A DNA stretch of 64,000 nt from Paludibacteraceae bacterium (GTDB lineage: Bacteria > Bacteroidota > Bacteroidia > Bacteroidales > Paludibacteraceae): the NCBI GenBank assembly GCA_024401435.1, contig JAKSLB010000010.1:1-64000 (forward strand), given 5' to 3'. Below are positions 7,123 through 54,835 of the stretch, piece by piece (the first letter of the stretch is position 1; each line of letters starts with the position of its first letter). The notes below the pieces were generated by a model, which was not told the origin of the DNA, ran no database searches, and worked only from the letters and a program-made list of their open reading frames with translations. The position numbers and the translations under genes were made by a program.

Positions 7123-7216
7123 GAATTTATTTGGAAATTTCCCATTGATTGCTTGAGTGAATGTTTGCAGGGATTGGACTTCTCATCAGGGGAAATATGC
7201 TTTGAAAACAACAAAA

Positions 7217-26786: not shown

Positions 26787-26789
26787 TTG

Positions 26790-26797
26790 TACCTTTG
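26790..26797 (+). promoter_or_regulatory. -7 box TACCTTTG of the rpmB operon, with leader
   Basis: Perfect TAnnTTTG just past the cinA stop. The ~160-nt leader to rpmB contains an inverted repeat TTCTGAT (26876-26882) / ATCAGAA (26905-26911); whether this is regulatory is not known. Confidence 0.65.
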
Positions 26798-26963
26798 CAC
26801 CTCGTAAGTTTAAGAAAATTGGTGGTTTTCCAAGACTTATGATTTAAAAGAAAGAAAGGCAACATTTCGTTAGTTTTCTGATAGTTACGCTGCTTCGAGA
26901 GAAGATCAGAAGGAAAAAAATGGGACCTTACTTTATGTAATAACTTTAAGATTTTATACAGCG

Positions 26964-27197
26964 ATGTCAAAAATTTGTGAAATTACTGGTAAAACAGCAT
27001 TAAATGGAAATAATGTTTCTCACTCAAAGAGAAGAACAAAGAGATCATTTGATGTAAATTTGTTTACAAAGAAGTTCTATTGGCCAGAGCAAGATTGCTG
27101 GATTAGTTTGAAGCTATCTGCAAAAGGTCTTCGTACTATTAACAAGAAAGGTCTTAACGCAGCATTGATTGATGCAGCAAAGAAAGGTAACATTTAA
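26964..27197 (+). CDS. rpmB: Large ribosomal subunit protein bL28
   Basis: 77 residues. [20 protein letters not shown] is the diagnostic N-terminus, followed by [20 protein letters not shown] and the C-terminal [14 protein letters not shown]. Component of the 50S subunit near the E site. First gene of a three-gene operon with rpmG (17 bp downstream) and the DUF4295 gene, the conserved Bacteroidetes arrangement. Full length, basic. Start fixed by homology. Confidence 0.97.
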
Positions 27198-29124: not shown

Positions 29125-30291
29125 TTATTTCACATCTTTTGATTTCACTTTCATAGAAGATAACTTCTCTTTCAACAATGATTCAGTGGTCATACATTCA
29201 AAATCCATATACTCAATATCCATATTTTTGGCAATTCGTCCCCACTCTCCATTATTATCCTTTCGCAAAGTACAGATATGGAACAAACAAGAAACACCTA
29301 ACAAAGCTTCCTTCAATGCACAAGCCTTGTAAACAATCTCATTAAAGATACTTTCCGTCTGTACACCTGTCTTACACTCAACCACATAAAACTTATTTCC
29401 TTTCGTAAAGACAACATCCAGTTCATTCTGACGTTTTACCCCTTTTGTGTAGATCTTTACACCAATAGCAATGTCATCTGGATTCAATTCACGTTTCATC
29501 ATATAATAAACATACTCCTCAAACCATCCGCCCGTCAAATATTCCAACTCCTCTTTCGTTAATAATTCAGGATTTTGCGGGGTGAAATGAAGATACGCTA
29601 AAAAGTTCACTATGTCAGGAATAGGTTCATCCTCCTCTAACTGAGGAGAGATAATATCTTGTATAGCTACCTTATTTTTACATCTGTAGAATTTTCTCAA
29701 AATATCCAGTATTTCCAATCCACAAGGACCTAACAAATCTTCCGAGAAAAGATAAAACAAATATTTCGCATCCTCTTCCGAGCGAATAGGCGTATGACCT
29801 TTCCTTTTCAAATCACTATGCATTCCATGTGCCGTCAGATACTCCTGAATAGTCATTCTATAGGAAATAGGGAAATAAGAATCATCATCGTCATAGATAC
29901 TATCATCATAAATAGACTTTATGATCACATTGTCTTTCACATGAACATAGAAAAATTCGCTATCAAAACGTTCAAACACCTGCTGTACCGCTAAGGCCAT
30001 ATAACGTGTTCCCCCAGCCAGATTGACACAATAATGAACGCCCTCTTGCAAATAGGCTTTTACTGTCCTACAAATCTTTTCATAACAAAAAGCATCCGTA
30101 TCTTCCTTCAATAAAACCACAATACTTTCAGTAGGAACACCGTCAATCTCATCCAAATATACCATATCAGATTCCGTGTCTTTCGCAGATATGTACATCA
30201 ATCTGTCACCTTCCTGAAACATCTCCTTAATGAACAGATAAGCTGAAATCGGATCATCTTCGGTTACAATATTTACAATAGTCTTTGCCAT
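29125..30291 (-). CDS. Card1/Can2-like CARF-domain nuclease (DUF1887 family), stand-alone
   Basis: 388 residues. The N-terminal ~145 residues form a CARF-like Rossmann domain: VNIVTEDDPISAYLFIKEMF, then CVNLAGGTRYMALAV (Gly-Gly-Thr at 94-96), the usual cyclic-oligoadenylate site. A winged-helix-like linker follows. The C-terminal domain is PD-(D/E)XK: GGWFEEYVYYMM (Glu 259/260), NELDVVF (Asp 293) and YVVECKTG (Glu 307, Lys 309). Relatives are activated by cA4 from type III CRISPR and cleave DNA and/or RNA. No cas gene or CRISPR array is present in this window, so its signal source would be elsewhere in the genome. Single gene, minus strand, next to tRNA-Met. Confidence 0.82.
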   Translation of the reverse strand: MAKTIVNIVTEDDPISAYLFIKEMFQEGDRLMYISAKDTESDMVYLDEIDGVPTESIVVLLKEDTDAFCYEKICRTVKAYLQEGVHYCVNLAGGTRYMALAVQQVFERFDSEFFYVHVKDNVIIKSIYDDSIYDDDDSYFPISYRMTIQEYLTAHGMHSDLKRKGHTPIRSEEDAKYLFYLFSEDLLGPCGLEILDILRKFYRCKNKVAIQDIISPQLEEDEPIPDIVNFLAYLHFTPQNPELLTKEELEYLTGGWFEEYVYYMMKRELNPDDIAIGVKIYTKGVKRQNELDVVFTKGNKFYVVECKTGVQTESIFNEIVYKACALKEALLGVSCLFHICTLRKDNNGEWGRIAKNMDIEYMDFECMTTESLLKEKLSSMKVKSKDVK

Positions 30292-30498: not shown

Positions 30499-30505
30499 TA
30501 AGATG

Positions 30506-30580
30506 TGGGCCCAACAGGACTTGAACCTGTGACCCCCTGATTATGAGTCAGGTGCTACTAACCAACTGAGCTATGGGCCC
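30506..30580 (-). tRNA. tRNA-Met (anticodon CAT)
   Basis: 75 nt without CCA. Acceptor stem GGGCCCA / TGGGCCC, D-arm GCTCAGTTGGTTAGTAGC, anticodon stem-loop CTGA-CTCATAA-TCAG, T-arm ACAGGTTCAAGTCCTGT, discriminator A. Anticodon CAT. It lacks the initiator features (C1:A72 mismatch and GGG/CCC anticodon stem), so it is elongator Met, or Ile if the C is lysidine-modified; Met is preferred on overall sequence. Confidence 0.93.
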
Positions 30581-30678: not shown

Positions 30679-31623
30679 GTGGTTAATTTCATACATACTA
30701 TTCAGGAATCACCTGACTCAGATTTAATACTGACAATCGGATTTTTTGACGGCGTTCATTGCGGACATCGTTATTTGGTTGATTATATGCAAACAATTGC
30801 CCGAAAGGAAAATCTCAAATCTGCGATTCTGACCTTTTGGCCCCATCCACGCATGGTACTACAACAAGAGTATCAACCAAAATTATTGAATACGATTGAA
30901 GAGAAACTGGAAAGAATAAGCCAACTACCAATTGATTACTGTTTTCAGATTCCTTTCACGAAAGAGTTCTCCAACTTATCAGCCTATGATTTTATGAAAG
31001 AAATATTACGCGACCAACTACATGTCCGTCATCTAATCATAGGCTATGACCATAGATTCGGTCACAATCGCGAAGAAGGGTTCGACGAATATTGTCAATA
31101 TGGGAAGGAATTAGGCATCGTCGTCACACAAGCTCCCGTTTTCAGTATAGAAGATAAAAACATCAGTTCCTCACTGATTCGACGTTTACTCTCCAAAGGA
31201 GATGTGGCGCAAGCTAAGAATTTTCTCGGATATCCATACACTCTAACAGGAGAAGTCGTACATGGAAAAAGAATCGGACAATCCATAGGATTTCCAACCG
31301 CAAATCTTCAACCCAATTCTCCAATAAAAATCATACCATCCGATGGAGTGTATGCTGTGAAAATTGTAATACAAAACAATTGTTATACTGGAATGGCCTG
31401 CATCGGATCGCGTCCGACCCTTGAAAAAGACGGGAAAACTTCCATTGAAATCAACATTTTCGATTTCGATCATTCAATTTATGGAGAAACCATTCAAATC
31501 CAATTTTACGAATATATCCGTCCTTTATGTAAATTCACAGATTTACAAGAACTACAAAAAGCATTAGAATTAGATAAGGAACAAGTGTTATTCTACTTTA
31601 AAGACAATCAACAAAACGCATAA
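30679..31623 (+). CDS. ribF: Bifunctional riboflavin kinase / FAD synthetase
   Basis: 314 residues starting at a GTG. The N-terminal FAD synthetase domain shows LTIGFFDGVHCGHRYLVDY (nucleotidyltransferase HxGH-type motif), ILTFWPHPRMVL, LIIGYDHRFGHNREEG and NISSSLIRRLLSKGDV. The C-terminal kinase domain shows LTGEVVHGKRIGQSIGFPTA and GVYAVKI, MACIGSRPT and FIYGET-like segments. It converts riboflavin to FMN and FMN to FAD in the cytoplasm. Complete length. Ends in a bidirectional terminator facing the PfkB gene. Confidence 0.95.
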   Translation: MVNFIHTIQESPDSDLILTIGFFDGVHCGHRYLVDYMQTIARKENLKSAILTFWPHPRMVLQQEYQPKLLNTIEEKLERISQLPIDYCFQIPFTKEFSNLSAYDFMKEILRDQLHVRHLIIGYDHRFGHNREEGFDEYCQYGKELGIVVTQAPVFSIEDKNISSSLIRRLLSKGDVAQAKNFLGYPYTLTGEVVHGKRIGQSIGFPTANLQPNSPIKIIPSDGVYAVKIVIQNNCYTGMACIGSRPTLEKDGKTSIEINIFDFDHSIYGETIQIQFYEYIRPLCKFTDLQELQKALELDKEQVLFYFKDNQQNA

Positions 31624-31684: not shown

Positions 31685-32608
31685 TTATAAGAAATGTTCT
31701 GCGTATTCTTTAGAAATGTAATTATCTAACGTAGTACATACAAAAGAAGAGAAATCAATAGCATAACGAGCCACCTGATTCCAACGCTCTTCAGTCACAC
31801 CAGCCTTCAAATCCTCTAACGTTATCTCCTCTTTAATAAGACCATAAACAAAACCAGCATTAAAATTATCCCCCGCACCCACAGTACTCATTGGATCAAT
31901 CTTGTTAGCCGTATATTGTTTTTCGAAATTTTCAGCAAATATTTTAGCCCCCTTCTCTCCCATCGTATAGATGAAATTTTTAGAGTAGAAACTGATATGG
32001 TCTTTGTAAATCTGACTAGCATTATCTTCGCCATAGATGTTGATAAAGTCTTCATCAGACCCCTTGATAATATCCGCATATTCAAAGTTGTCCAAAATGG
32101 CAGGCATCAAATGGCGTACATCATTGATGTGTGATTTACGGAAATTCACATCATAATAAATAATGGCTTTTCTTTCACGTGCGAAATCCAACAAATCAAC
32201 AACACGATCACGCAAGACAGGGTTCAAAGCAAAGTAAGACCCAATGATGATGATATCATTCTCATCAATGCGAGGCATAATATAATCCAAACGCTCAGCT
32301 GGATAGTCTTTATAAAAAAGGTAATCTGCATTTTGTTTTTCATCCAAAAAAGCCAATGCTAAAGGAGTCTTACCTCTATCATAAGAATAGATGTATTTTG
32401 TTTCAACCTGATTTTCGACTAAGAAATTTTTAATAATCTCACCGATTCGATCGTCACCAATTTCACTAATAAAAATAGGATTTGTGTGCAAACGCCCTAA
32501 AGAGATCAATGCATTATAAACCGAACCTCCCGGTTTTGCACTAATAGGCTGATTATTTTTAAAAATAATATCATAGACAGTCTCACCTATGCCAATAATT
32601 TTTCTCAT
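31685..32608 (-). CDS. PfkB-family carbohydrate (or nucleoside) kinase
   Basis: 307 residues. IIGIGETVYDIIFKNNQP at the start, AKPGGSVYNALISLGRL (sugar-binding Gly-Gly), and MSTVGAGDNFNAGFVYGL, which carries the catalytic Asp of the PfkB signature GAGDxFxAG. It phosphorylates a sugar or nucleoside using ATP; fructokinase is the commonest annotation in Bacteroidales, but the substrate cannot be told from sequence alone. The upstream lipoprotein (32628-33920) is in the same direction, 19 bp away, so the two may be co-transcribed from the box at 33949. Confidence 0.88.
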   Translation of the reverse strand: MRKIIGIGETVYDIIFKNNQPISAKPGGSVYNALISLGRLHTNPIFISEIGDDRIGEIIKNFLVENQVETKYIYSYDRGKTPLALAFLDEKQNADYLFYKDYPAERLDYIMPRIDENDIIIIGSYFALNPVLRDRVVDLLDFARERKAIIYYDVNFRKSHINDVRHLMPAILDNFEYADIIKGSDEDFINIYGEDNASQIYKDHISFYSKNFIYTMGEKGAKIFAENFEKQYTANKIDPMSTVGAGDNFNAGFVYGLIKEEITLEDLKAGVTEERWNQVARYAIDFSSFVCTTLDNYISKEYAEHFL

Positions 32609-32627: not shown

Positions 32628-33920
32628 TTAATCCCTATAGTTTAATTCGTCAGCAATTAACTGGTTTAACACTCCTCTCCAAACAATAGGAGAAACAACG
32701 TTTCCTTTATTTCCGCCAACTATAACCATTTCCCCCTCTTTCGAAGATAAAAATACGCCCGCAGAATTAAGATCTTGTAAATCACCTATCAATTGTTTGT
32801 GCCAATCTTCAGTCCAAGTAACTCCATTATCATAAGAAGCATAACATTTAGAAGAATAGGTTCCGTCAGATAACTGACCACCAACAATACTTAATGTATT
32901 ATTATAATTGTAAACCATAGGATTGACAAGATAAGGAATTGTTCCATCAGAAGGGATCAATTGATAAAAACCACCCTTATAATCAACAGACCATATAGAA
33001 CCGTTATCATCTTTAGTAACATAGATATACCCCAACTGTGTAGCAGCTGATTCTGTAGTAAATGTCACAAAATTTTCTAATGAAAATTCAGATGGTAGTT
33101 CAGAAACTTTAGTAAAATCGGAACTATCCTTAGCCATAGCATATAAAGATCTTTCGGCAATAGCCCATAATTTACCATCTAATTCAAAAAGGATATAATC
33201 CATTTTAGAGCAATCTAACTTACTAAACGTAAGTTTATCTATATCACCTACATAAAGTTCTTTATTGCTATCTTGAAGATATAACTTTCCATTGAACATA
33301 GACAAAGTATTCCAATTGAAAGATGTATTCTCAATATTTTTCTTCGTCCATTTCTGACCATTCGTTTCAGAGGAGAAACAATAATTATTTCCATCCGCTG
33401 TTTGACAGAACCAATACCAAATATTCTTATCAACAATAGATTTTTGAGTGATAACTACCTCATCAATATCTAAAGAACACTTTTCCTGCCAAGAAAAAGC
33501 AGATACATCAAACTTATGAACACGCAAATCAAAATCATACACCTTCTGATTGGTTCCATCTTCGGATATAGCCAATATTTGAAGAGGAGAAGAAAAATTC
33601 ATCGCAGTTCCATTAGAGAAATTTTTCCATTCTTTATCATCCTTATATTTATATTTAATAGAAGGGGTGGATGTATATCCATAAAAGAACATATTCATTT
33701 TAGAGACATTACTTCCAAAAGCTAAGGAATCATAATTATAGATTACACTTTCAACGTCGTTGATAACAAATGTTGTTGATTTAAAATTCGTTGATACAAC
33801 AGATCGAATACGAGGATCTTCTCTATTAAAATCAGTCGTCAAATCTTCGTCTTTATCACAAGAAACTGTTATCAAAGGCAAAGAAAGGAAAAAAAGATAT
33901 CCTAAATTTTTAAAACTCAT
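32628..33920 (-). CDS. DUF6242-like beta-propeller lipoprotein
   Basis: 430 residues with lipobox FLSLPLITVSC (Cys ~21) and acidic linker DKDEDL. The N-terminal part (to ~150) is a domain with IRSVVSTNFKSTTFVINDVE and repeated strands; the C-terminal ~280 residues have propeller-like repeats (SMFNGKLYLQDSNKELYVGD, LFELDGKLWAIAERSLYAMA, CYASYDNGVTWTEDW with an Asp-box). The architecture recalls DUF6242 lipoproteins of Bacteroidales. Probably surface-exposed; ligand unknown. Single -7 box upstream. Confidence 0.7.
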   Translation of the reverse strand: MSFKNLGYLFFLSLPLITVSCDKDEDLTTDFNREDPRIRSVVSTNFKSTTFVINDVESVIYNYDSLAFGSNVSKMNMFFYGYTSTPSIKYKYKDDKEWKNFSNGTAMNFSSPLQILAISEDGTNQKVYDFDLRVHKFDVSAFSWQEKCSLDIDEVVITQKSIVDKNIWYWFCQTADGNNYCFSSETNGQKWTKKNIENTSFNWNTLSMFNGKLYLQDSNKELYVGDIDKLTFSKLDCSKMDYILFELDGKLWAIAERSLYAMAKDSSDFTKVSELPSEFSLENFVTFTTESAATQLGYIYVTKDDNGSIWSVDYKGGFYQLIPSDGTIPYLVNPMVYNYNNTLSIVGGQLSDGTYSSKCYASYDNGVTWTEDWHKQLIGDLQDLNSAGVFLSSKEGEMVIVGGNKGNVVSPIVWRGVLNQLIADELNYRD

Positions 33921-33983: not shown

Positions 33984-35405
33984 CTAAGCTCTATTTTTAA
34001 GACGAGTATTTAAGGAATACTTCAAATACTCTTTTGCTTCTTTCTCTTTTAAGTTGGGTAACTTACTATTTAATTCTTCTACATAAGCGACTTGGACATT
34101 ATAATCCAAACTTTCAAACTTACGTTTCAAATCTTCCTGTATCATACTTTCCGGGAAGAATGAAGTAAGGACCTCACTGTAAAAATCAACACAAAGTTTC
34201 TCTTTGTCAGATTTGTTCATTTTCAACAAATTTTGATGGAATGAATTACCAACGATCTTAATAAAGAAAATCCAATTGGTAATAGCGCGACGTTTCTGAC
34301 CTGGCACCGACACTTTATTTCCAATAGAATAATTGAAGTATAACTCACTCTCACCCTCATTGGCCATGCGTTCCAATTCAGCTTGCGCAGGTTTGATAAC
34401 ATATCGTTCAAAATCACAACTATCAGAGAACTTATCTTCACAATTGAGAATTTCTCGTAAGTGTGTATCTGTGATATTGACCATTAGTTTATCACTGTTC
34501 TTATATTGAGAACACAACTCATATAAACGTAATGTCGTATACGATTTTGTACGCATAGTCGTACTCAAATTCATAGTTGTGTAATTACCAAGAGCGGTGA
34601 TACGATTGACCAAACTGACCATAGTCGGACTTAACTCCACATATACAGATTTCCCCCATTTCGCCATTTCCAACTTTGTCACCAAAGCAATGGATTGCCA
34701 CGTTCCATTTTCATCCACAAAATCAACACATAGTTTCTTTTGTAGTTCAGACAAACTTCTACGAAGAGACATATTACTGTTTGCACAACCCACACTCACC
34801 AACTCTGCCGTTGGTACATCCATACAAGCGCCACCAAAGATTTGAGGATTACTTTTTTGGAAGTTGGCTATCATATAGTTGACAAACTTCTTTTGGATCA
34901 ATGTAAACTTTTGTCTTGCTTGTGTCAATCTATTACTCTGAAAGAACGTAACATCCGTCACCGAATTCAAGTCCTTGTCCTGCATTTTATTGAACAATTC
35001 CTCTCCAGCTTTCGATTTCAGATAATTAGAATAATAGCGTTCCATCGGACGACGTATTTTATACAAAATGTCCTTTTGGAAATCCGTCATATTATCGGGG
35101 GATATAACATCGTATAAGGTAAAAGAAAATTGATGATTTCGAAACTCATCGTATAATGGTGAGAAGAAATGATAGTCAGAATCAGGAGATTCAAACATTT
35201 CGAAAACGGATCTTTTGGTATAAAGATTCACCCCACCATCTTCCCGAAAGGAATATGGTACACAATTATCGATTATGAGTCCTATTTTAGCTTTCTTACA
35301 AATAGGGTCAGTTGAATCTGCAAAATTTCGAATGATCTGATAAGCAATATCCAAAATTTGCTTTAATTCCTCCCCTTCTGCAACCTTATCAATGTTATTT
35401 TCCAT
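33984..35405 (-). CDS. RepB/Rep_3-type replication initiator
   Basis: 473 residues from MENNIDKVAEG; 15 extra codons are open upstream, but a -7 box at 35428-35435 lies between, which fixes this start. The Rep_3 (PF01051) layout is visible: SNRLTQARQKFTLIQKKFV (helix after the N-terminal extension), SNMSLRRSLSELQKKL, TKSYTTLRLYELCSQYKN and NWIFFIKIVG, i.e. two winged-helix halves. Such proteins bind iterons and open the origin of theta-replicating plasmids. Here ~1.3 kb of 20-bp repeats lies directly upstream, with partial copies within 65 bp of the -7 box, suggesting autorepression. Neighbours on both sides are chromosomal-type genes; no partition or mobilisation gene is adjacent. Confidence 0.85.
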   Translation of the reverse strand: MENNIDKVAEGEELKQILDIAYQIIRNFADSTDPICKKAKIGLIIDNCVPYSFREDGGVNLYTKRSVFEMFESPDSDYHFFSPLYDEFRNHQFSFTLYDVISPDNMTDFQKDILYKIRRPMERYYSNYLKSKAGEELFNKMQDKDLNSVTDVTFFQSNRLTQARQKFTLIQKKFVNYMIANFQKSNPQIFGGACMDVPTAELVSVGCANSNMSLRRSLSELQKKLCVDFVDENGTWQSIALVTKLEMAKWGKSVYVELSPTMVSLVNRITALGNYTTMNLSTTMRTKSYTTLRLYELCSQYKNSDKLMVNITDTHLREILNCEDKFSDSCDFERYVIKPAQAELERMANEGESELYFNYSIGNKVSVPGQKRRAITNWIFFIKIVGNSFHQNLLKMNKSDKEKLCVDFYSEVLTSFFPESMIQEDLKRKFESLDYNVQVAYVEELNSKLPNLKEKEAKEYLKYSLNTRLKNRA

Positions 35406-35427
35406 ATACAAGCATACTAATTTTTGG

Positions 35428-35435
35428 CAAATATA
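35428..35435 (-). promoter_or_regulatory. -7 box TATATTTG of the rep gene
   Basis: Perfect TAnnTTTG on the minus strand, 22 bp before the chosen ATG. Repeats with TTCCGCAC start ~30 bp farther upstream. Confidence 0.6.
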
Positions 35436-35464
35436 ACAAAGTTTCCACAAAAAGATAGCATTTT

Positions 35465-36760
35465 ATCCGCATTTTTTTTCATTTCTTCCGCACAAACATT
35501 TCATTTCTTCCGCACAAATCTTCTAAACTGCTGATATATAAAGGATTTTTCGAACAGTCTAAAATATAAAATAAAAAAATAAATAATAACAAAATTTAAA
35601 ATAAGGGGATTCTTTCATTTGAATTTATATTTCAATCTATTTTAGATTCAATTTTTTATTACTGCAAAAGTAACATTTCTTCCGCACTCACACAGAAATA
35701 CACAGGAAAGTTCTCAACAAAAAGCACTGCGGAAAAAATGTTATCTTTAAGACAAAAATGGTTGGTAATCCATTTCAAAAATCTATCTAAGATAGTCATA
35801 GAACCACCTATGGAAAGTACAGCGGAAAAAATGTTATCTTTTTCTGCCAAAAACGTTAGGATAAAATAACATTTTTTCCGCAGAGAAGGAATCTATTGAG
35901 TGCGGAATTTTTGTTACCTTTATGTTTTTCGAAAGATAACAATTTTTCCACACAAATATTCAGTAAATAATTAATAGTAAATGATTTATAGAATCTATGT
36001 AGAATAATAAGTATTGTAAAAAGATAACAAAAGTTCCGCTGTTTACAACTCAATATACAGGTTGAGAGTGCGGAAGAATTGTTATCTTTTGAAGCAATTC
36101 AAAGAGGATAAAAGATAACAAAAGTTCCACAGTATTTTATATACATTTGAACCTCAGGATATTACAATTTTATGCGGAAAAAATATTATCTTTCAATTCG
36201 ATGATAAGCACCCAAAAGATAACAAAATTTCCGCTTATTAAGCTATAAAAAGCAGGTCCTCAGTTCTGCGAAAGTGCGGAAGAATTGTGTTCTTTTTGTT
36301 CGAAAATATTGGATAGTATCAGAGTCAAAAGGTAACAAAATTTCCGCTGTTTTTTATATGCCATTGAACTTCAATCTATTATGATTTTGTGCGGAAAATT
36401 TGTTATGTTTTCATCAGAAAAAAAGCACCCAAAAGATAACAAAATTTCCGCCTATTAAGTTATAAAATGCAGGTCCTCAGTTCTGCGAAAGTGCGGAAGA
36501 ATTGTGTTCTTTTTGTTCGAAAATATTGGATAGTATCAGAGTCAAAAGGTAACAAAATTTCCGCTGTTTTTTATATGCTATTGAACTTCAATCTATTATG
36601 ATTTTGTGCGGAAAATTTGTTATGTTTTATGTTTGTTTGTATCAGCTAAAAGACAACAATTTTTCCGCATAAATGAACCTATTTTCCGCAATAGAGATAA
36701 CAAAAGTTCCGCAGATGGTTAACAATTTTTCCGCACAAAAATGTCTGTTACCTTTTAGAC
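35465..36760. repeat. Iteron-like array, candidate origin of replication
   Basis: About 21 full copies of a 20-21-bp motif, consensus AAAGATAACAAAANTTCCGC, plus several half copies. Twelve are in this orientation (starts near 35667, 35863, 35932, 36020, 36111, 36215, 36328, 36432, 36545, 36649, 36693, 36717). Nine are inverted (near 35728, 35821, 35901, 36069, 36173, 36275, 36390, 36492, 36607). From 36069 to 36669 the two orientations strictly alternate with spacing ~42/60/53/62 bp. The interval is very AT-rich between motifs and has no credible gene. Together with the adjacent Rep gene it looks like an iteron origin. Confidence 0.8.
36206..36629. repeat. 217-bp tandem duplication inside the iteron array
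   Basis: The segment 36206-36412 recurs at 36423-36629 with an offset of 217 bp and only a few substitutions (for example CTTATTAAGC against CCTATTAAGT). Each copy carries four iterons, two in each orientation. Confidence 0.85.
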
Positions 36761-36842: not shown

Positions 36843-37268
36843 TTAAAAATTAGAATCATACAATTCAAATTCTTTCGGATTGGGACCATATTCATTTTCT
36901 TCTGGCTGTCCCTCCTTTTTATAGAGCAATACATTCGCAAGAATTATGAATGATAAAACCAGAATTCTAGGCAAAGTATATTTTGCACAAAATAGGAAAC
37001 AGATATAAATAGGTAATATAGAGAAGATCGCCCAAATCTCTTTTTTCCCCATGTCATGTAGTCTTCGAATGGCAACAGAATAAGTTGGACAGATGAAAAT
37101 AATGCTGATACCTATATATACAGATATATCAAATCTCAATTTAAGATCCGCATATATGACCGAAAAAAGTAATAGGATTATAAAGACAAAGAAAGTAAAA
37201 AATTCTTTTCTTCTTGCGCGACCATGGAAATTCCCATAATTTTTAAAACATTTAATAATCCACTTCAT
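36843..37268 (-). CDS. DUF805 family inner-membrane protein
   Basis: 141 residues with four hydrophobic segments. Family features: CFKNYGNFHGRARRKEFFTF at the N-terminus and YSVAIRRLHDMGKKEIWAI in the second half, then a Pro/Glu-rich tail (EGQPEENEYGPNP). DUF805 proteins (YhaH-like) are small polytopic membrane proteins of unknown function. The upstream RDD gene ends 4 bp away, so the two form an operon. Confidence 0.85.
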   Translation of the reverse strand: MKWIIKCFKNYGNFHGRARRKEFFTFFVFIILLLFSVIYADLKLRFDISVYIGISIIFICPTYSVAIRRLHDMGKKEIWAIFSILPIYICFLFCAKYTLPRILVLSFIILANVLLYKKEGQPEENEYGPNPKEFELYDSNF

Positions 37269-37272
37269 ATTA

Positions 37273-37983
37273 TTATTCTATTGTTTGGTAATAATTATAA
37301 TCATTATAGATTTGAATAAGGAAATTTCGTTTATTGTAATGTTTCATATCTATTTCCTTTTTTTTACTAATCATAGTAGCGATTTCATCGAGTTGTGCTG
37401 AATAGTTATTATCATATAGTGCTTTGAGAATAAGTTGAATATCTTTTTCTTCCAGTTTTGAAAGTTCTTCTAATTTATATATGGGTTTATAATTTATTTC
37501 AACATATTGGTAATCTGTACTTAATGAAACTTTTACATCTTTTGCATTTCCCTCGCATACAATGTAGGATCCAGAAGCCATATCACCTAATCGCTGACCA
37601 TGTTTGGTAATCATGATCAATCCTACAATATATATATCTATTGGGTAAAGAATCCATCGAATAAAACATTGTTGAAAAGAGGGCGGTTGACAATTGTCTG
37701 TGATAACTTTGATTTTTAATGCATACTTACCAATGGTTTTCCCATGTAAAAGGAATTCTAACATTAAATTTATAAGGTATATAAATACATATGTAAAAAT
37801 CAAAATGTGTTTTTGGGTTGACCATGAAATGTATTGATTATCTATGAGATAAAGGGAAAATAAGACAAGAGCGGTTTGGATAGCACGATCAATTATAACG
37901 GCAAAAAAACGTTTTCCAATTGATGCTAATTTATAATTTAGTTGAACGTATTGTCCGTTGGTTATTTTTAGAGTATCTAACAT
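37273..37983 (-). CDS. RDD family membrane protein
   Basis: 236 residues. The RDD pattern is visible in ASIGKRFFAVIIDRAIQ, with further segments KTIGKYALKIKVITDN and IMITKHGQRLGDMASGSYIV. Three to four membrane spans are followed by a ~90-residue cytoplasmic C-terminus. RDD proteins are thought to be ion-transport or membrane-stress related. It is the first gene of a two-gene operon with DUF805, divergent from the SpoIIM/MoxR operon; the two share the 38.0-kb promoter region. Confidence 0.85.
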   Translation of the reverse strand: MLDTLKITNGQYVQLNYKLASIGKRFFAVIIDRAIQTALVLFSLYLIDNQYISWSTQKHILIFTYVFIYLINLMLEFLLHGKTIGKYALKIKVITDNCQPPSFQQCFIRWILYPIDIYIVGLIMITKHGQRLGDMASGSYIVCEGNAKDVKVSLSTDYQYVEINYKPIYKLEELSKLEEKDIQLILKALYDNNYSAQLDEIATMISKKKEIDMKHYNKRNFLIQIYNDYNYYQTIE

Positions 37984-38021
37984 AAGAATTAAGTAATTGT
38001 TTATTTCTTACTTTATCACAA

Positions 38022-38029
38022 CAAAAATA
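38022..38029 (-). promoter_or_regulatory. -7 box TATTTTTG (RDD operon)
   Basis: Perfect TAnnTTTG on the minus strand, 38 bp before the RDD ATG. Confidence 0.6.
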
Positions 38030-38042
38030 ATAAAAATAAATA

Positions 38043-38050
38043 TATCTTTG
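38043..38050 (+). promoter_or_regulatory. -7 box TATCTTTG (SpoIIM-MoxR operon)
   Basis: Perfect TAnnTTTG 22 bp before the ATG at 38073. The two divergent boxes are only 13 bp apart. Confidence 0.65.
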
Positions 38051-38072
38051 TTGTTGCAATAAAGGTGATTTT

Positions 38073-39038
38073 ATGAAGGAAAACATTTTTGTTAGAAAAA
38101 ATAAGGATAAATGGGAGGAGTATGAACGTAAGGTCTCCAATCCTCAGCAGTTATCCACACAACACATTTCTGATATATACCAAGATTTAACGGCAGATTT
38201 GGCATATGCTCAAGGACATTTTCCAGAAGCACGAGTCACCTCTTATTTAAATAATCTTGTTCTTTCATTGCATGGGTATCTTTATCAGCCCAAACAACGT
38301 TCTTTTCTATCGATTATTACTTTTTTCACAGAATATGTACCAAAGACTGTTGCTGAATCTCATGTTGAAATGAAAATTGCCTTTGTCATTTTTTCTTTAT
38401 TTACGATAGCAGGAGTTATACTGGCTGTACAAGATATACAGAATATTATTGATACGTTAGGTCCTAGTTATGTGGAGATGACATTGGAAAATATTAACAA
38501 TGGTGTTCCTACAGATGTTTATGGTGATTCTATGCAAAGTGATATGTTTTTGTATATTGTGTTGAATAATTTACGGGTTGATTTAATAACTTATATGTAT
38601 GGAATTGTTCCAATATTGGGTCCAGGCTATATTATGATGAATAATGGTGTTATGTTGGGTGAGTTTCAAACCCTATTCTTTTTAAATGGAGTCGGTTTTC
38701 AGTCGATGACAGCCATCTGGATTCATGGAACAATCGAAATCTCCACTATTATTATAGCTAGTGCGGCTTCGCTTAGATTAGGATTAGGTTGGGTATTTCC
38801 TGGTACGTATTCAAGAAAAGAGGCTTTGAAACAAAGTGGTTTGAAGAGTGTCAAGATACTTATTTCGATTTTACCATTGACTATTTTGGCTGCTTTTTTG
38901 GAAAGTTTTGCCACTCGACATACAGAATGGCCATTATTTGTTAAGTTACTAATTATCGGAGGTTCTTTAGCTTTTATATTGTTTTACTATGTTTTTTTAC
39001 CTCATCAAATTAGAAAAAGAAGGGAGGGGATGATATGA
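38073..39038 (+). CDS. SpoIIM/stage II sporulation protein M family membrane protein
   Basis: 321 residues. A soluble N-terminal part (KDKWEEYERKVSNPQQLS, SDIYQDLTADLAYAQGHFP) is followed by five to six membrane segments; GPGYIMMNNGVMLGEF and AIWIHGTIEISTIIIASAA are typical of the SpoIIM/DUF95 family. In Bacteroidetes this gene travels with RDD, DUF4129-like, DUF4350-like, MoxR and DUF58 genes. The family function outside sporulation is not known. It overlaps the next gene by 4 bp. Confidence 0.88.
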   Translation: MKENIFVRKNKDKWEEYERKVSNPQQLSTQHISDIYQDLTADLAYAQGHFPEARVTSYLNNLVLSLHGYLYQPKQRSFLSIITFFTEYVPKTVAESHVEMKIAFVIFSLFTIAGVILAVQDIQNIIDTLGPSYVEMTLENINNGVPTDVYGDSMQSDMFLYIVLNNLRVDLITYMYGIVPILGPGYIMMNNGVMLGEFQTLFFLNGVGFQSMTAIWIHGTIEISTIIIASAASLRLGLGWVFPGTYSRKEALKQSGLKSVKILISILPLTILAAFLESFATRHTEWPLFVKLLIIGGSLAFILFYYVFLPHQIRKRREGMI

Positions 39039-39832
39039 AAAACAAGTATCGTTTGAAAGTCACGTTCCTTTTCTTATTATCTTTTCTTTACTCCTTTGGT
39101 CAGCAAGATACTGATTTTTCTTTTTCGGAGGAGGATTCTATTGTTGCACAGGCGGATTCTACGGCTGCATATATCCTCAACGCGGAAGATTCTACTATTG
39201 TAGTAGCTGATTTAGATGAGGACGATGAATTACCCCGAGATACCTTTTTAACTTATAATCCAGAAAGTATTGATTATTTGAAATCCAATACCCATTATGG
39301 TCCTGGTCAAAAAATGAAGAAATTTGAAAAGGGGAAAAAATCAAAAGATGAGAAATCTAGGTTTCTTAGTGAAATAGTTGAATTTATAGAGTCGATTAAT
39401 GGGGAAATATTTATAATAGCATTGATTATTTTTATTGTCTGCATTATCTTTATTTCTCTATTTGTTTTTTATAAGAATCATTATTATCATAAGAAATATG
39501 GAGATTCAGGATTAAAAAAAACGGAAAATGAACAGGTTGAGACTGTGGATTTATTAAATCAGGCTTTACAAAGTAAAAATTATAATGAGGCAGTAAAAAT
39601 TGTTTATGTACAAACATTGGCATGGTTAAATAACCATCAGATGATTCATTGGGAGTTGTCGAAGACTCCTTCTGAATATTATTATGAAGTGAAAGATCAT
39701 TCTTTACGAAAACCGTTTAAAGAATTGACACATATATTTTTATTAGCGCGTTATGATAATGTGATGGTTGATTGTGAGATGTATGAATCAGCACAAAAAT
39801 ATAAACAACAAATTTTATCGATGACGAAATGA
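39035..39832 (+). CDS. DUF4129-like membrane protein
   Basis: 265 residues with a signal sequence (FLFLLSFLYSFG), an acidic low-complexity stretch (VADLDEDDELPRD), one membrane span near residues 124-147, and a cytoplasmic C-terminal domain (LNQALQSKNYNEAVKIVYVQ, then WELSKTPSEYYYEV and LARYDNVMVDCEMY). The C-terminal layout is that of DUF4129-type proteins in MoxR operons. It overlaps both neighbours by 4 bp, so all are translated as one unit. Probably a membrane partner of the MoxR/DUF58 system. Confidence 0.75.
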   Translation: MKNKYRLKVTFLFLLSFLYSFGQQDTDFSFSEEDSIVAQADSTAAYILNAEDSTIVVADLDEDDELPRDTFLTYNPESIDYLKSNTHYGPGQKMKKFEKGKKSKDEKSRFLSEIVEFIESINGEIFIIALIIFIVCIIFISLFVFYKNHYYHKKYGDSGLKKTENEQVETVDLLNQALQSKNYNEAVKIVYVQTLAWLNNHQMIHWELSKTPSEYYYEVKDHSLRKPFKELTHIFLLARYDNVMVDCEMYESAQKYKQQILSMTK

Positions 39833-41040
39833 AAGGAAAAATAAGAAATATAATATTCATGTTTTCCCTTTTTGTTTTGGGAGCTTGTAATAATAGTGAT
39901 AATCATACCAATTGGGCACCTCATTTCTTAGCCAATCATGATCCTTTTGGCACCGCTATTTTTAGAGACCTTGTTATAGCTTCAGATCCTGGTCATCCAA
40001 AATTTTATGATGATGAGATGATTGTTTATAAAAAAGATGATCTTCAAGGAGAAGAGCAAGGGATGAAGCACAACTTCTTGTATGTTACATGTTCTAATGA
40101 TCCTATTGATACTACTATGATATGGAAGCAAAATGAAAATGGATATTCTACAATTGTCGCTGCTTCTCAATCATTTATACTAGAAGATTTTGCTGAAGAA
40201 GTAGAAAAAAACAAAGGATGTTTGACATCTGTTATTACAAATCTTGTGACACAAAAGAAGTATAATTATCCGACCCAAATGTGTAAGTCACGTGTTTTTG
40301 ATAATCCTGTCGATGAATTTTTACAACGATACATCGCTTATGAAGAAATAGCAACCATTGATTCTGCACCTGTAGCCATTCGGTATATACATCCGAACGG
40401 TTCAAGTCTTATTTTTGTCTCAATGCCTCTGTTGTTTACTAATTATGGTGCCTTATATGAAGAAAATGCAGAATTGATTATTGACTTTTTTAGAATAGCT
40501 GGTGGTCATAGCTGGTATTGTTTCTTCCATATGGATGAAAAGAATAAAGAGGCAGCATATTATGAAACAAGTAAAATAAAATCAGAAACGAATAGCGAGT
40601 CTTCTGTAGATTCGGGTGTTATGCTTCGTGATTTAATAGAATATGCCATTATTGGTGTATTTATAGGTTTTTTGCTATTTTTTGCGCGACGTCGAGAGAG
40701 AATAATTCCTGTTATGGAAAAGCCTCAAAATAAGTCTATCGATTTTGCTAAACAGATTAGTAAGAATTATATGTGGAAAGAGGAATATGGTGTTATCTTA
40801 CGAAAAAAGTTTGTTGTGTTTATTGATACGTTACAAGAAAAAACAAATATCAATCTGAATGATTTGGAACATTTCAGTTCCAATATAGCGACATTGGAAA
40901 AATTAACACAAGAGAATAGATTGAATTTATTTTTTCAAAATTTATTCAAAATACATGAAAATAAAAAAATCGAGGTCTCATATGAAGAAATGAGGTATTA
41001 TATAACAAAAATGAATTTGATAATCAGTAAATTAAAATAA
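39829..41040 (+). CDS. DUF4350-like lipoprotein/membrane protein of the MoxR operon
   Basis: 403 residues. N-terminal lipobox-like FSLFVLGAC (Cys ~18), then a DUF4350-like domain (NHDPFGTAIFRDLVIASDP, IVAASQSFILEDFAEEVEKN, SSLIFVSMPLLFTNYG). A single membrane span near residues 270-288 (IIGVFIGFLLFFARRR) and a cytoplasmic tail of ~110 residues. It fits the proteins found between DUF4129 and MoxR genes in Bacteroidetes. Molecular function unknown. Confidence 0.75.
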   Translation: MKGKIRNIIFMFSLFVLGACNNSDNHTNWAPHFLANHDPFGTAIFRDLVIASDPGHPKFYDDEMIVYKKDDLQGEEQGMKHNFLYVTCSNDPIDTTMIWKQNENGYSTIVAASQSFILEDFAEEVEKNKGCLTSVITNLVTQKKYNYPTQMCKSRVFDNPVDEFLQRYIAYEEIATIDSAPVAIRYIHPNGSSLIFVSMPLLFTNYGALYEENAELIIDFFRIAGGHSWYCFFHMDEKNKEAAYYETSKIKSETNSESSVDSGVMLRDLIEYAIIGVFIGFLLFFARRRERIIPVMEKPQNKSIDFAKQISKNYMWKEEYGVILRKKFVVFIDTLQEKTNINLNDLEHFSSNIATLEKLTQENRLNLFFQNLFKIHENKKIEVSYEEMRYYITKMNLIISKLK

Positions 41041-41041
41041 T

Positions 41042-42010
41042 ATGGAAAACGAAACAATCATAACAGAGGTTCAATACCAAGCCAAGATAGAAGAGTTGAA
41101 GAGTCTGGTTTCTTCTATCATTGTTGGACAAGAGAAAATGTTGGATCTTCTATTAACTGCAGTTTTGGCAGATGGTCATACATTGATAGAGGGTGTACCT
41201 GGTGTTGCAAAAACATTAACCGCACGTTTGTTGGCAAAACTGATTAGTGCTAATTTTTCTCGTATGCAGTTTACTTCCGATTTGATGCCGTCCGACGTAT
41301 TAGGAACGAATGTGTTTAATGTAAGTAAAGGATGTTTCGAATTTCATCAAGGTCCCGCTTTTGGTGATATTATTTTGGTGGATGAAATTAATCGTGCTCC
41401 AGCAAAGACCCAATCCGCTTTGTTTGAGTTGATGGAAGAGCGACAGACCACCATCGATGGGGAATGTCATAAGATGGGAGATGTATATACGATTGTTGCT
41501 ACGCAAAACCCTATTGAGCAAGAGGGAACCTATCGTTTACCAGAGGCTCAGTTAGATCGTTTTCTATTTAAGATTCATATTGGTTATCCGTCGGTGGAAG
41601 ATGAGATAGCAATTATTAAAGCACATAATAGTAATAGTCGATTCACCAAGTTGGAGAATATTACACCTATTCTTTCTAAGGAGGAGTTGTTAGATCTTCG
41701 TTCAAAAGCTAATAATGTTTTCATTGATGAAAAATTGATTCAATATATTGCTTTGTTGATTCAGGAGACTCGTACCAACAAGTCTATCTATGTTGGCGCG
41801 TCTCCACGTGCGTCCATAGCCTTTTTACATGCAGCTAAAGCTTATGCATTGATTCAAGGACGTTCATTTGTGATTCCAGATGATATAAAAATGCTTACAT
41901 TCCCTATTTTATGTCACAGAATCATATTGACGGCAGAGGCAGAAATGGAAGGTCTTTCGATTGACCGTGTTATTAAAGAGATGGTGGAGAAAGTAGAAGT
42001 TCCAAAATAA
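41042..42010 (+). CDS. MoxR-family AAA ATPase
   Basis: 322 residues. Walker A GVPGVAKT, Walker B IILVDEINRAPAKTQSALFE, sensor 1 ATQNPIEQEGTYRLPEAQ followed by LDRF, and VGASPRASIAFLHAAKAYAL near the C-terminus with sensor 2 features. MoxR ATPases act as chaperones that assemble or activate partner proteins, usually with VWA/DUF58 proteins such as the next gene. The gene is 1 bp after the DUF4350-like stop. Complete length. Confidence 0.93.
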   Translation: MENETIITEVQYQAKIEELKSLVSSIIVGQEKMLDLLLTAVLADGHTLIEGVPGVAKTLTARLLAKLISANFSRMQFTSDLMPSDVLGTNVFNVSKGCFEFHQGPAFGDIILVDEINRAPAKTQSALFELMEERQTTIDGECHKMGDVYTIVATQNPIEQEGTYRLPEAQLDRFLFKIHIGYPSVEDEIAIIKAHNSNSRFTKLENITPILSKEELLDLRSKANNVFIDEKLIQYIALLIQETRTNKSIYVGASPRASIAFLHAAKAYALIQGRSFVIPDDIKMLTFPILCHRIILTAEAEMEGLSIDRVIKEMVEKVEVPK

Positions 42011-42028
42011 TTAAAAAGAAGAACGAGA

Positions 42029-43342
42029 ATGTTTTTATCGAAAAGATTCATAACATTTCTATGCATTGCATGTTTTCTGACCTCATTGGGTAGGCTCTGG
42101 CCTTTCTTTTATGTGGTTGGCGGCATAACTATAGCTGTATTGATCGTATCTTTCATCATTGATCTTTTCTCTATTTATTCTGATGATGCTGGTATTTTAT
42201 GCAAAAGAGAGATGGCGGAACGATTTTCAAATGGCGATGAAAATATAGTGAAACTTCATATTACCAGTTTGTATGATAGAGATGTTACGGTTTCGGTGAT
42301 TGATGAAATTCCCGTAGAGTTTCAGAATCGTCATTTTAGGTTGAATGGTTTGTTACATTCCAAAGAAGAAACAACGCTATCTTATTCGTTAATCCCCAAA
42401 AGAAGAGGTTCCTATTCTTTTGAAAACATTCACATTTATGTACATTCCATTTGGCATTTGTGTGAGCGACGTTTCACTATAAAAACTCCAATGGCTGTAA
42501 AGGTATATCCTTCCTTTTTATATATTCGAAATATGCAGTTATTATCTATTGAGAATAAATCGTTAGAGTGTGGTATTAAGTTGGTGAGACGATTAGGAAG
42601 CAGCATGGAGTTTGATCAAATCAAGGAGTATGTTCCAGGAGATGATTATAGAAAGATCAATTGGAAAGCCAGTGCTCGTAAAAATCTGCTGATGACGAAT
42701 TTGTATAGAGATGAGCAGTCACAGTTAATTTATAATGTGATAGATAAGGGAAGAGGTATGCAGCATACATTTAATCAGATGAGTTTGCTTGATTATGCGA
42801 TAAATTCCTCTTTGGCGTTGTCGTATATGGCTCTTCAACATCGAGATAATCCAGGTTTAATCACATTTGAAAAAAACATTGATAGTTTTGTCCCAGCAAG
42901 TAGGAATATCAATCAGATGGAATCTATTATGAATACGTTGTATAAAGAGTCTACAACTTATATTCAAAGTGATTATGCTGCATTGTATGGACATATTCGT
43001 AAGAATGTAAATAAACGAAGTCTTATTGTTATATATACAATGTTTGATACGAATGTGGCGATGGAGCGAGAACTTCCTTATTTACGAAAATTAGCTTCTA
43101 ATCATGTCGTTTTAGTTGTTTTCTTTAAAGACAAGGAACTTCAGTTGGCTGCGCAGACAAAACCTGTGAAAAAATTGGATTATTTTGACCATGTCATTCT
43201 GGAGAATATGGAGTTTGAAAAGAAAATGATTGTTAGGAATCTTTATCGATATGGAATACATTCAATTTTAACCGAACCGGAAAATTTGACAGTTAATGTT
43301 GTTAATAAGTACATTGATATGAAAGCGCGAAACATAATTTAA
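42029..43342 (+). CDS. DUF58 domain protein
   Basis: 437 residues. Two N-terminal membrane spans (residues ~5-45), a beta-rich domain, then the DUF58 signature IKEYVPGDDYRKINWKASAR and the von Willebrand A-like fold (LIYNVIDKGRGMQH with a DxGxx motif). DUF58 proteins pair with MoxR ATPases. Last gene of the six-partner divergent locus. A 235-bp spacer follows before the next promoter. Confidence 0.9.
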   Translation: MFLSKRFITFLCIACFLTSLGRLWPFFYVVGGITIAVLIVSFIIDLFSIYSDDAGILCKREMAERFSNGDENIVKLHITSLYDRDVTVSVIDEIPVEFQNRHFRLNGLLHSKEETTLSYSLIPKRRGSYSFENIHIYVHSIWHLCERRFTIKTPMAVKVYPSFLYIRNMQLLSIENKSLECGIKLVRRLGSSMEFDQIKEYVPGDDYRKINWKASARKNLLMTNLYRDEQSQLIYNVIDKGRGMQHTFNQMSLLDYAINSSLALSYMALQHRDNPGLITFEKNIDSFVPASRNINQMESIMNTLYKESTTYIQSDYAALYGHIRKNVNKRSLIVIYTMFDTNVAMERELPYLRKLASNHVVLVVFFKDKELQLAAQTKPVKKLDYFDHVILENMEFEKKMIVRNLYRYGIHSILTEPENLTVNVVNKYIDMKARNII

Positions 43343-48437: not shown

Positions 48438-50321
48438 ATGGATAAAAATAGTATTCTGGCTTTTGTCTTGATGACGTTAGTTTTTATAGGTTTCAGTTAT
48501 TTTAACCGACCAACGCAAGAACAGATTGAAGCACAACAAAGGTACGTTGATTCTATTAACAATGTACAAGCACAGTTGAAAGAAAAAGAGGCCCAGATTC
48601 AAGCTGAGGCATTCAAGCCTATCTTTTCTGAGGAAGATACAGATTCTATGAAGATGATCAAGTCTACAGAGCGTTATGGAGAGTTTGCTAGTGGTGCATT
48701 TGGTGCAAACGAAACGGTCACATTACAAAATAATTTAATCCGTGTAGACTTGTCAACTTTAGGTGCGGAAGTTAAAAAGGTTACATTGAAGGATTATGTT
48801 GACTATAAGAAAGATACGCTAGTTTTATTTTCTGAAAATGAGAATCAATTTTCAATTGATTTGCCGACTGTTAGTAATCGGACATTAAAAACGACAGATT
48901 TAAAATTTAAAATTGCATCAAAGACAGATAGTTCGGTAACATTCTCATTGTTAACCAACAATGGCGGAAGTTTAGATTATATCTATACTCTTCCTTCTAA
49001 CTCCTATATGTTAGATTTTGATATTCGCATGAATAATTTGTCTAATGTATTATCTGATAAGTCTTCATTGGTGGCCAATTGGAAAATGGATGTACCTCAA
49101 CATGAAAAAGGTCGAAAGTTTGAAGGAAGATATGCTCAAATGTATTATTATACATTGGATGATGGCATAGATTATTTAAGCGAGACTTCAAATGATGAAA
49201 CAAAACTTTCAGATCCGTTGAGATGGATTGCTTTTAAAGACCAATATTTTTCAAGTATTTTGATTGCAGACAAAGAATTCTCTTCATCTGATTTGTCATC
49301 AAAAGTGGCAAAGGATTTATCTAAATATTTAAAACAATACGAAGCTTCCATTAAGATTCCTTGTGAAGGCGATAATTCAACTATTGGAATGCGTTATTTC
49401 TTTGGTCCTAACCATTACAAATTGTTAAAGTCATATGATGAAGGTTTGTCGGGTGATCAAAAATTATATCTGAAACGTATTGTTCCTTTAGGTGCTGCAA
49501 TATTCCGTTGGGTAAATCAAATTTTCACAATACCAATGTTTAATTTCCTTGGTGGATTTATTAGTAACTATGGTATCATTATTTTAATTATGACATTTGT
49601 AGTGAAATTGATTATCTTCCCATTGACGTACAAGTCATATCTTTCAACAGCGAAGATGAGAGTGTTAAAACCGCAAATTGATGAAATTAATGCTAGAATT
49701 CCTGCAGAAAATCAGTCTGAGCGTTCACAAGCAACTATGGAATTGTATTCTAAAGCTGGTGTTAATCCGATGGGTGGATGTTTACCAATGTTATTGCAAA
49801 TGCCTATTTTGATTGCTTTATTCTATTTCTTCCCGAATGCAATTGAGTTGAGAGGACAAAGTTTCTTGTGGGCTGAAGATCTTTCTACATACGATGCTAT
49901 CATTTCATGGAATAAAGACTTATGGTTAATCGGTGATCACATTAGTTTGTTCTGTTTATTGATGACCATAACCAATTTCATTTATACTAAAATTAATATG
50001 GCAACCACTGATACAGGACAAATGAATCAAATGCCAATTATGAAGTATATGATGTACTTTATGCCTGTTATGTTCTTGTTTATCTTTAATGATTATTCTT
50101 CTGGTTTGAGTTACTATTATTTCATTTCTTTGTTGATTACGATCATTCAAACTTTTGTGATTCGTAAGTATTTTGTTGATGAAGAGAAATTATTAAAAAA
50201 GATTCAAGAAAATCAAAAGAAGCCTATGAAAAAAGGTACATGGTTGTCTAGAATTGAGGAAATGCAGAAACAAAGTCAGGCAATGATGGAACAACAAAGA
50301 AAACAACAACAAGGTAAATAA
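48438..50321 (+). CDS. yidC: YidC membrane protein insertase
   Basis: 627 residues. MDKNSILAFVLMTLVFIGFS is the N-terminal anchor; residues ~70-350 form the periplasmic beta-supersandwich of Gram-negative YidC (TLQNNLIRVDLSTLGAEVKK). The conserved core follows: NYGIIILIMTFVVKLIIFPL, AGVNPMGGCLPMLLQMPILI and SGLSYYYFISLLITIIQTF. A basic, Gln/Lys-rich tail follows. It inserts and folds inner-membrane proteins with or without SecYEG. Single-gene transcript ending in a strong hairpin; the tra operon converges on it. Confidence 0.96.
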   Translation: MDKNSILAFVLMTLVFIGFSYFNRPTQEQIEAQQRYVDSINNVQAQLKEKEAQIQAEAFKPIFSEEDTDSMKMIKSTERYGEFASGAFGANETVTLQNNLIRVDLSTLGAEVKKVTLKDYVDYKKDTLVLFSENENQFSIDLPTVSNRTLKTTDLKFKIASKTDSSVTFSLLTNNGGSLDYIYTLPSNSYMLDFDIRMNNLSNVLSDKSSLVANWKMDVPQHEKGRKFEGRYAQMYYYTLDDGIDYLSETSNDETKLSDPLRWIAFKDQYFSSILIADKEFSSSDLSSKVAKDLSKYLKQYEASIKIPCEGDNSTIGMRYFFGPNHYKLLKSYDEGLSGDQKLYLKRIVPLGAAIFRWVNQIFTIPMFNFLGGFISNYGIIILIMTFVVKLIIFPLTYKSYLSTAKMRVLKPQIDEINARIPAENQSERSQATMELYSKAGVNPMGGCLPMLLQMPILIALFYFFPNAIELRGQSFLWAEDLSTYDAIISWNKDLWLIGDHISLFCLLMTITNFIYTKINMATTDTGQMNQMPIMKYMMYFMPVMFLFIFNDYSSGLSYYYFISLLITIIQTFVIRKYFVDEEKLLKKIQENQKKPMKKGTWLSRIEEMQKQSQAMMEQQRKQQQGK

Positions 50322-53057: not shown

Positions 53058-53069
53058 GATATGTAAAAT

Positions 53070-54805: not shown

Positions 54806-54835
54806 TGTCGTATTTGTTGGTAGAATATTAACTAA

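Follow-up and report, generated by a model that had tools for sequence, protein, structure and literature searches.

The window analysed here comprises 64,000 nucleotides of a Paludibacteraceae bacterium (GenBank assembly GCA_024401435.1, contig JAKSLB010000010.1, positions 1 to 64,000, forward strand). Between positions 33984 and 36735 it holds rep, a gene for a Rep_3-family replication initiator, and upstream of it a long array of iterons. The genome of the window (G000) is a 3.83-Mb draft in 204 contigs, and the window lies in its contig C2 (100,349 bp). The features of the locus, with guanine-plus-cytosine content given as GC, are the following.

33984..35405, minus strand: rep, Rep_3-family replication initiator, 473 residues (Pfam, PDB profile matches, relatives)
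35432..35514, plus strand: four direct iterons immediately upstream of rep, spacing 22, 21 and 22 bp (matrix sites)
35520..35665, no strand: AT-rich stretch, 19.2% GC (base composition)
35669..36624, no strand: central block of 18 iterons, orientation mostly alternating, many spacings near 45 and 56-60 bp
35808, no strand: minimum of the cumulative GC skew of the 100,349-bp contig, inside the array
35944..35952, plus strand: DnaA-box-like TTTTCCACA inside an iteron, which may be only part of that iteron
36652..36735, plus strand: distal block of four direct iterons, spacing 21, 23 and 22 bp

Matches to this Rep at E<=1e-30 are present in four of 358 genomes of the family, and close ones in three: G000 itself, G004 (Paludibacteraceae RGIG7865, from water-buffalo reticulum; 92-93% identity) and G002 (RUG11121; 79%). 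The fourth, G012 (RGIG9770, from yak omasum), has only 32% identity over residues 136-410. G004, G002 and G012 are metagenome-assembled genomes. The three close Rep genes lie on contigs of draft genomes, C2 in G000 (100 kb), C28 in G004 (168 kb) and C58 in G002 (112 kb). No Rep relative was confirmed in viral contigs and none was found in phage records.

The earlier note took rep for a complete initiator gene, which is borne out by the 473 residues and by two Pfam domains above their cut-offs, Rep3_N (PF01051, E 2.7e-14) and Rep3_C (PF21205, E 2.7e-5), both of the winged-helix type. A profile of four Rep homologues matches (profile positions 152-344) the solved replication initiation proteins 1rep, 2z9o and relatives in the PDB, which are plasmid initiators of the RepE kind. 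The open frame reaches 35450 (33984-35450, minus strand), and the ATG at 35405 is the likely start because MENNxDK is common to G000, G004 and G002. The promoter that the earlier note ascribes to the gene is represented by a promoter-like TATATTTG upstream of this start; the first iteron overlaps it, and we take it to resemble the Bacteroidales -7 box with the presumed consensus TAnnTTTG. Between G000 and G004 the synonymous sites of rep are saturated (proportion of synonymous differences 0.78), while the nonsynonymous distance (dN) is 0.042, and 0.012 in the winged-helix part; these values indicate that Rep is under strong constraint by purifying selection.

With a site matrix, the array at 35432-36735 contains 26 sites (17 plus, 9 minus) of a motif close to GATAACAATTTTTCCGCA, and the rest of the 100-kb contig has 6 at an equal threshold; the matrix was built from three homologous arrays and is hence circular as a test. 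The single 20-mer AAAGATAACAAAATTTCCGC occurs 16 times in the window when <=3 mismatches are allowed, always within 35429-36712; the expectation from 100 shuffles is 0.03. The array of a 20-bp motif described in the earlier note is thus present, and its count of about 21 copies becomes 16 by the 20-mer and a somewhat higher 26 by the matrix. The layout is kept in the other two species, with totals of 25 sites in G004 and 24 in G002. Both have the promoter-proximal four-site block with 22-bp spacing, an AT-rich stretch at the corresponding place (19.2% GC in G004, 13.9% in G002), a central block (17 and 16 sites) and a distal block (spacing 21, 23, 22 in G004 and 22, 23, 22 in G002). In all three arrays, iterons about two helical turns apart thus adjoin rep together with an AT-rich stretch of 14-19% GC. 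The four promoter-proximal iterons are probably an autoregulatory operator, and the AT-rich stretch is a probable DNA unwinding element. The central block of G000 also contains a 217-bp tandem repeat. For the DnaA-box-like site listed above, the consensus is the one that we assume for DnaA boxes.

We now turn to the strand asymmetry around the locus. The earlier note proposed looking for a shift in GC skew near 36 kb, and such a shift is present: in 2-kb bins, the skew is below zero in 17 of 18 as far as 36 kb (the bin at 26-28 kb is +0.028) and above zero in all 14 beyond that point. The cumulative minimum of the G000 contig falls inside the array; that of G004 is at 85858, 1 bp outside its array (which ends at 85857), and that of G002 at 26941, inside its array at 25687-27048. 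With windows of 20 kb and 25 kb, the largest negative-to-positive switch of each Rep contig is in the array or <=50 bp away from it. The chance of a minimum at the array under random placement is 0.013, 0.0077 and 0.012 for the individual contigs, which belong to species that share ancestry. An origin of the flip in gene orientation was considered and rejected, since the flip persists in strand-controlled third codon positions: all three genomes show it there whichever strand the genes are on, and show it in intergenic DNA too (third-position skew of G000, 35 kb on each side: -0.350 and -0.184 to the left, +0.263 and +0.301 to the right). G000 and G004 share the side with ribF, PfkB and DUF6242 and differ on the other, while in G002 Rep is inverted and has other neighbours, which indicates that the skew signal follows the array.

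These data bear directly on one of the readings left by the earlier note, a dead remnant. Here an integrated plasmid would have fallen silent in replication, and the position of the flip would be a coincidence or an effect of gene orientation. Rep_3 and iterons are indeed of plasmid type, and a rarity of 3 in 358 genomes fits a remnant; but the skew minimum lies at the array in all three genomes with their different flanks, the flip holds within both gene strands, and both the purifying selection on rep and the conserved array layout speak against decay. We therefore regard a silent remnant as hardly credible. The rule that absence from relatives would mark a remnant does not hold up either, because Rep is absent outside one clade and yet looks active within it. 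The Rep/array locus is well supported as a working replication origin, and among the possibilities of plasmid, second origin and chromid that the earlier note had listed, the origin stands and the chromid is favoured. At such an origin, Rep would bind the iterons, melt the adjacent AT-rich stretch and load the replisome, and it would repress its own gene through the four promoter-proximal sites. By analogy with the regulatory sites of Vibrio chromosome II, the large alternating block may restrain initiation by titration and pairing.

It should be stressed that this is not the only origin region of these genomes. Replacement of DnaA by Rep as the sole chromosome origin was considered and rejected, since dnaA is found in 16 of 16 genomes of the genus and the region of mnmG has a skew minimum of its own as well as parS. 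For the complete relative G016, the analysis covered 20 samples and one 388-kb stretch; the deepest minimum of that stretch is at 2,524,173, which is 12 kb from mnmG, and a shallower minimum lies near 2.632 Mb. Each of the Rep-less G007, G010 and G011 has its minimum, within the part read, at the same intergenic place (C23 10513, C35 47922 and C52 64479, respectively), 11.0 kb from mnmG and just upstream of a presumably nadA-like gene. The minimum of C47, the 227-kb mnmG contig of G004, falls at 71529, at a distance of 0.9 kb from mnmG; the skew is -0.081 on its left and +0.095 on its right. The strand-controlled flip near mnmG holds in G004, G010 and G011 and is weak in G007. Sites of the parS type are found 3.5-5 kb from mnmG in 6 of 6 contigs of the genus and adjoining mnmG in G016. 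Around each minimum and around mnmG the DnaA-box pattern that we assume (TTWTNCACA) occurs only 0-3 times, and the shared place in G007, G010 and G011 has no dense cluster of it, so that the main oriC is placed only approximately. Near mnmG there is hence a further origin region of the ordinary kind, with parS, which is clear in G004 and unclear in G000.

The neighbours of the Rep origin are chromosomal in type, as the earlier note had stated.

30505..30580, minus strand: tRNA-Met
30679..31623, plus strand: ribF, sole match in the genome (Pfam, genome search)
31685-32608, minus strand: PfkB kinase, ancestral chromosomal neighbour
32628-33920, minus strand: DUF6242 protein, ancestral chromosomal neighbour
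36843..43342, no single strand: block of DUF805, RDD, SpoIIM, DUF4129, MoxR-type AAA and DUF58 genes
48438..50321, plus strand: yidC, a core gene on the Rep contig

The tRNA-Met gene is next to ribF on G004 C28 too, and ribF is a single match in both G000 and G004; in G002 it is on another contig. The genes from RDD to DUF58 are also found together on two contigs that carry the second type of dif-like site (dif2, see below), G004 C35 and G014 C7, and the yidC of G004 is likewise on C35. G004 C28 carries in addition secA (tested over its first 700 residues, hence below the full-length cut-off), lgt, trmD, prfC, purD, purE, pyrE and ackA. The Rep replicon thus carries core genes that relatives have on the chromosome. 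We have also counted reciprocal-best pairs across the clade genomes, where a gene may enter more than one pair and each genome is covered only in part. There are 155 such pairs among five Rep-side contigs, 57 among the main-side contigs, and 2 between Rep-side and mnmG- or dnaA-side contigs. G004 C35 and G014 C7 share 11 and 17 pairs, respectively, with G000 C2, and these shared genes tie the dif2 contigs to the Rep contigs.

An ancestral origin at two of these neighbours was considered and rejected. At ribF, the skew of five Rep-less relatives (G018 and four members of the genus) shows no more than a rise from negative values to about zero, and the parts of G014 and G018 that were read contain no negative-to-positive flip at the SpoIIM block. 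The step at ribF is from about -0.15 to about 0 in the Rep-less G001 C39, G007 C5 and G018 C39.

The same gene content bears on whether the contigs could belong to a conjugative megaplasmid rather than a chromosome-like replicon, or be mis-binned. The conjugative-transposon genes DUF4138, TraM and TraG lie at 50518-57948 of the window and are kept on the Rep contigs of G004 and G002, as would suit a megaplasmid, and in G012 a distant Rep_3, a dif-like site and TraG are on one 82.6-kb contig. On the other hand, ribF is the sole match in G000 and G004, and secA, lgt, trmD and yidC are on this side too (sole match being established for ribF alone). Moreover, the Rep contig is close to the chromosome in composition: C2 has 35.6% GC, two main-side contigs of the same genome, G000, have 35.8 and 36.2%, and tetranucleotide correlations are 0.885-0.915 within G000 and 0.942-0.974 within G004, although between-species values are nearly as high. 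Finally, orthologues of Rep-side genes are found on the mnmG contig of the Rep-less G011. A megaplasmid or mis-binning is accordingly judged improbable. The tra genes were also considered as proof of plasmid descent, and this was rejected because the kinds of tra genes seen near Rep are present in Rep-less relatives as well; TraG matches are found in 14 of 16 genomes of the genus.

As to other genes of accessory type, the window encodes an AAA-ATPase with PDDEXK_9 (5511-7214), a Fic/DOC protein (14647-15777) and a YhcG-type nuclease (62392-63417). A Card1-like CARF nuclease at 29125-30291, an effector type linked to clustered regularly interspaced short palindromic repeats (CRISPR), adjoins tRNA-Met and ribF.

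Sites resembling dif provide a further distinction between the two sides. A pattern written from the three sites seen first, applied with <=3 mismatches to 16 genomes, gave 17 sites, and the reversed control pattern gave none in 16 of 16. Two sites each are found in G004, G002 and G012, and one each in G014 (dif2 type) and G003 (dif1 type); of ten Rep_3-less genomes outside the clade, nine have one and G001 has none. Assuming an 11-6-11 division, the two sites are told apart by the six bases at the centre, which in the second end in ATC instead of ATA: the centres are TTTATA and TTAATC in G004, and TTGATA and TTTATC in G002. Two of the three genomes with a close Rep therefore have a dimer-resolution-type site with a divergent centre of its own, its function being putative. 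What we take to be crcB lies by the sole dif-like site of the Rep-less G015, G010, G005 and G007, weakly also of G011. The same presumed gene lies by dif1 of G012 and dif2 of G004, and was not found by the other 10 of the 17 sites. A presumably glycosyltransferase-like gene is by dif2 in both G002 and G004. Since crcB accompanies the lone dif of Rep-less relatives and also dif2 of G004, the old terminus seems to have gone to the second replicon.

In the DnaA tree, G000, G002, G004, G003 and G014 form one clade with support 100/99, and the four of its members included in the MnmG tree group with support 100/99 there. G003 has a DnaA identical to that of G004, and its bin is only 88% complete. 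It is without Rep, ribF, SpoIIM, TraG and dif2 together, while dnaA, mnmG and dif1 are kept, as if a separate second replicon had been left out of the bin. A ribF match is absent from G014 as well, and we attribute the absence of Rep in both genomes to missing contigs, as the assemblies may lack the place.

Taking these results together, positions 33984-36735 are probably the complete, active, bidirectional origin of a second chromosome (chromid) in this clade of uncultured Paludibacteraceae. The replicon would carry core genes of the relatives' main chromosome, and dif2 would serve it as a dimer-resolution site of its own. That it is physically separate from the main chromosome is inferred from the divergent dif centres and the gene partition, which favour a separate second chromosome over a second origin on one chromosome. 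In the latter case, a single chromosome would have two working origins, a DnaA-type oriC near mnmG and the Rep_3/iteron origin, with two terminus regions. Both skew minima do exist in G004, the Rep contigs have neither a second ParB nor a clear parS, the empty site described below is on the mnmG contig of G011 and G007, and natural single-chromosome Vibrio cholerae strains with ori1, ori2 and two dif sites are described in the accessible text of PMC5603330. However, divergent dif centres are, in the accessible part of PMC2533119, a difference between chromosomes of one cell in Proteobacteria and typical of separate ones, and two such sites are present in two of the three genomes. The gene sets barely mix (155 against 2 pairs), and G003, though only 88% complete, lacks the Rep-side genes jointly. 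We therefore consider two origins on one chromosome unlikely. If true, it would mean that unrelated origins have been stably kept through the divergence of at least three species, with a dif-like site for each terminus.

It is important to point out that a number of observations weigh against a second chromosome. The locus lies only on contigs of fragmented drafts, and no closed replicon with this Rep was seen; should C28 and C35 of G004 be parts of one replicon, it would measure at least 228 kb. No close Rep was found in the clade members G003 and G014, the latter having another Rep_3 gene, and the DnaA tree requires two or three changes of the Rep presence/absence label. In 10-kb windows, G002 C58 has its largest switch at 92700, away from the array, and G000 C2 has it 0.9 kb outside the array. 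The mnmG region of G000 has no flip once gene strand is controlled. The dif pattern derives from dif2-type sites, G000 has no dif-like site at <=3 mismatches, and on neither G004 C35 nor G014 C7 does dif2 coincide with a clear large-scale skew maximum. As to partition, there is one ParB gene per genome (11 of 11), none of them on a Rep contig. No clear parS was found on C2, C28 or C58, though a partition system is expected; the nearest matches there differ from the 16-mer at 3 positions, and a single 14-mer on C58 differs at 2. C2 and C28 each have a ParA-like ATPase, the two being identical at 220 of 238 positions, and C58 has a different one; these are only putative for partition, and that of G004 is below the NCBIfam cut-off.

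Regarding the formation of the second chromosome, the Rep-less relatives provide an indication. In G011, one 258-kb contig has orthologues of both sides, 42 of G004 C47 and 13 of G004 C28, a few of the 13 being possible paralogues. On this contig, the gene adjoining Rep in G002 lies 46 bp ahead of DUF6242, the Rep neighbour of G000 and G004, and PfkB comes next. This empty Rep site is 33 kb from mnmG in G011 and, with a 58-bp gap, 38 kb from mnmG in G007, and a negative-to-positive skew flip is absent at both. The empty site near mnmG and the terminus shift suggest plasmid insertion followed by fission: a Rep_3 plasmid replicon would have inserted 33-38 kb from mnmG, near oriC, and the chromosome would then have split. 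Rearrangement is heavy here.

Besides its distant Rep_3 (32%) and TraG match, the 82.6-kb contig of G012 mentioned above, C160, carries 17 CCGTGGAAA sites in an array, and its dif-like site has the dif2 centre; this contig is possibly a plasmid relative of the ancestor. A strictly alternating array was not borne out there, as all 17 exact CCGTGGAAA sites have one orientation. In the 40 kb read (42644-82643), the skew maximum at 45963 is 52 bp from the dif-like site, with only 3.4 kb of sequence to the left of that site, and the minimum at 76523 is beside the Rep array.

Finally, we compare the locus to known systems. Rep_3-bearing second chromosomes are known already from Prevotella. Prevotella intermedia OMA14 and 17 have, according to the accessible text of PMC4755523, a second chromosome with essential genes and the Rep_3-superfamily protein PIOMA14_II_0001, and the order Bacteroidales is common to both cases, the Reps being likened by family only. 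Its authors looked in vain for iteron-like repeats near PIOMA14_II_0001 and for a clear skew transition, and called the origin unknown, whereas the Paludibacteraceae locus shows an array, a skew minimum and a dif2-like site. Likened by layout and not by RctB sequence, the locus resembles Vibrio cholerae chromosome II (RctB, ori2) in its iteron-type origin, probable autoregulation, several blocks of initiator sites, AT-rich stretch of probable unwinding and dif2-like site with a divergent centre, as far as the accessible parts of PMC6090056 and PMC2533119 describe these. It differs in having one motif type instead of 12-mers and 39-mers, and in that parS was not found beside the origin. Flammeovirga, in the portion of PMC8653839 available, is another member of the Bacteroidota with a second chromosome and a plasmid-type RepA; there the second chromosome has its own ParA and ParB and is derived by the authors from an early plasmid, while here chromosome material apparently split off near oriC. 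Plasmids of Bacteroides and Parabacteroides in PLSDB also have a Rep_3-type replication initiation protein, but with identities of <=29.9% over 43-63% of Rep, and they are mostly under 30 kb (25 of 73 records).

A survey that scanned metagenome-assembled genomes too places chromid carriers in eight phyla including Bacteroidota, as given in the accessible text of PMC12456017. Among the matches listed for Paludibacteraceae or Bacteroidales with chromid or second chromosome, most subscription literature not being covered, there was no paper on this group, whose probable second chromosome would be previously undescribed. How second chromosomes originate, and how those of Bacteroidales replicate, are open questions, that of P. 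intermedia having an origin reported as unknown. One genus here shows an iteron origin at a skew minimum, two distinguishable dif-like sites, close relatives with a single site and an empty insertion site. Because a single genus displays these features, the order of events by which a plasmid replicon became a chromosome origin can be worked out and put to the test.

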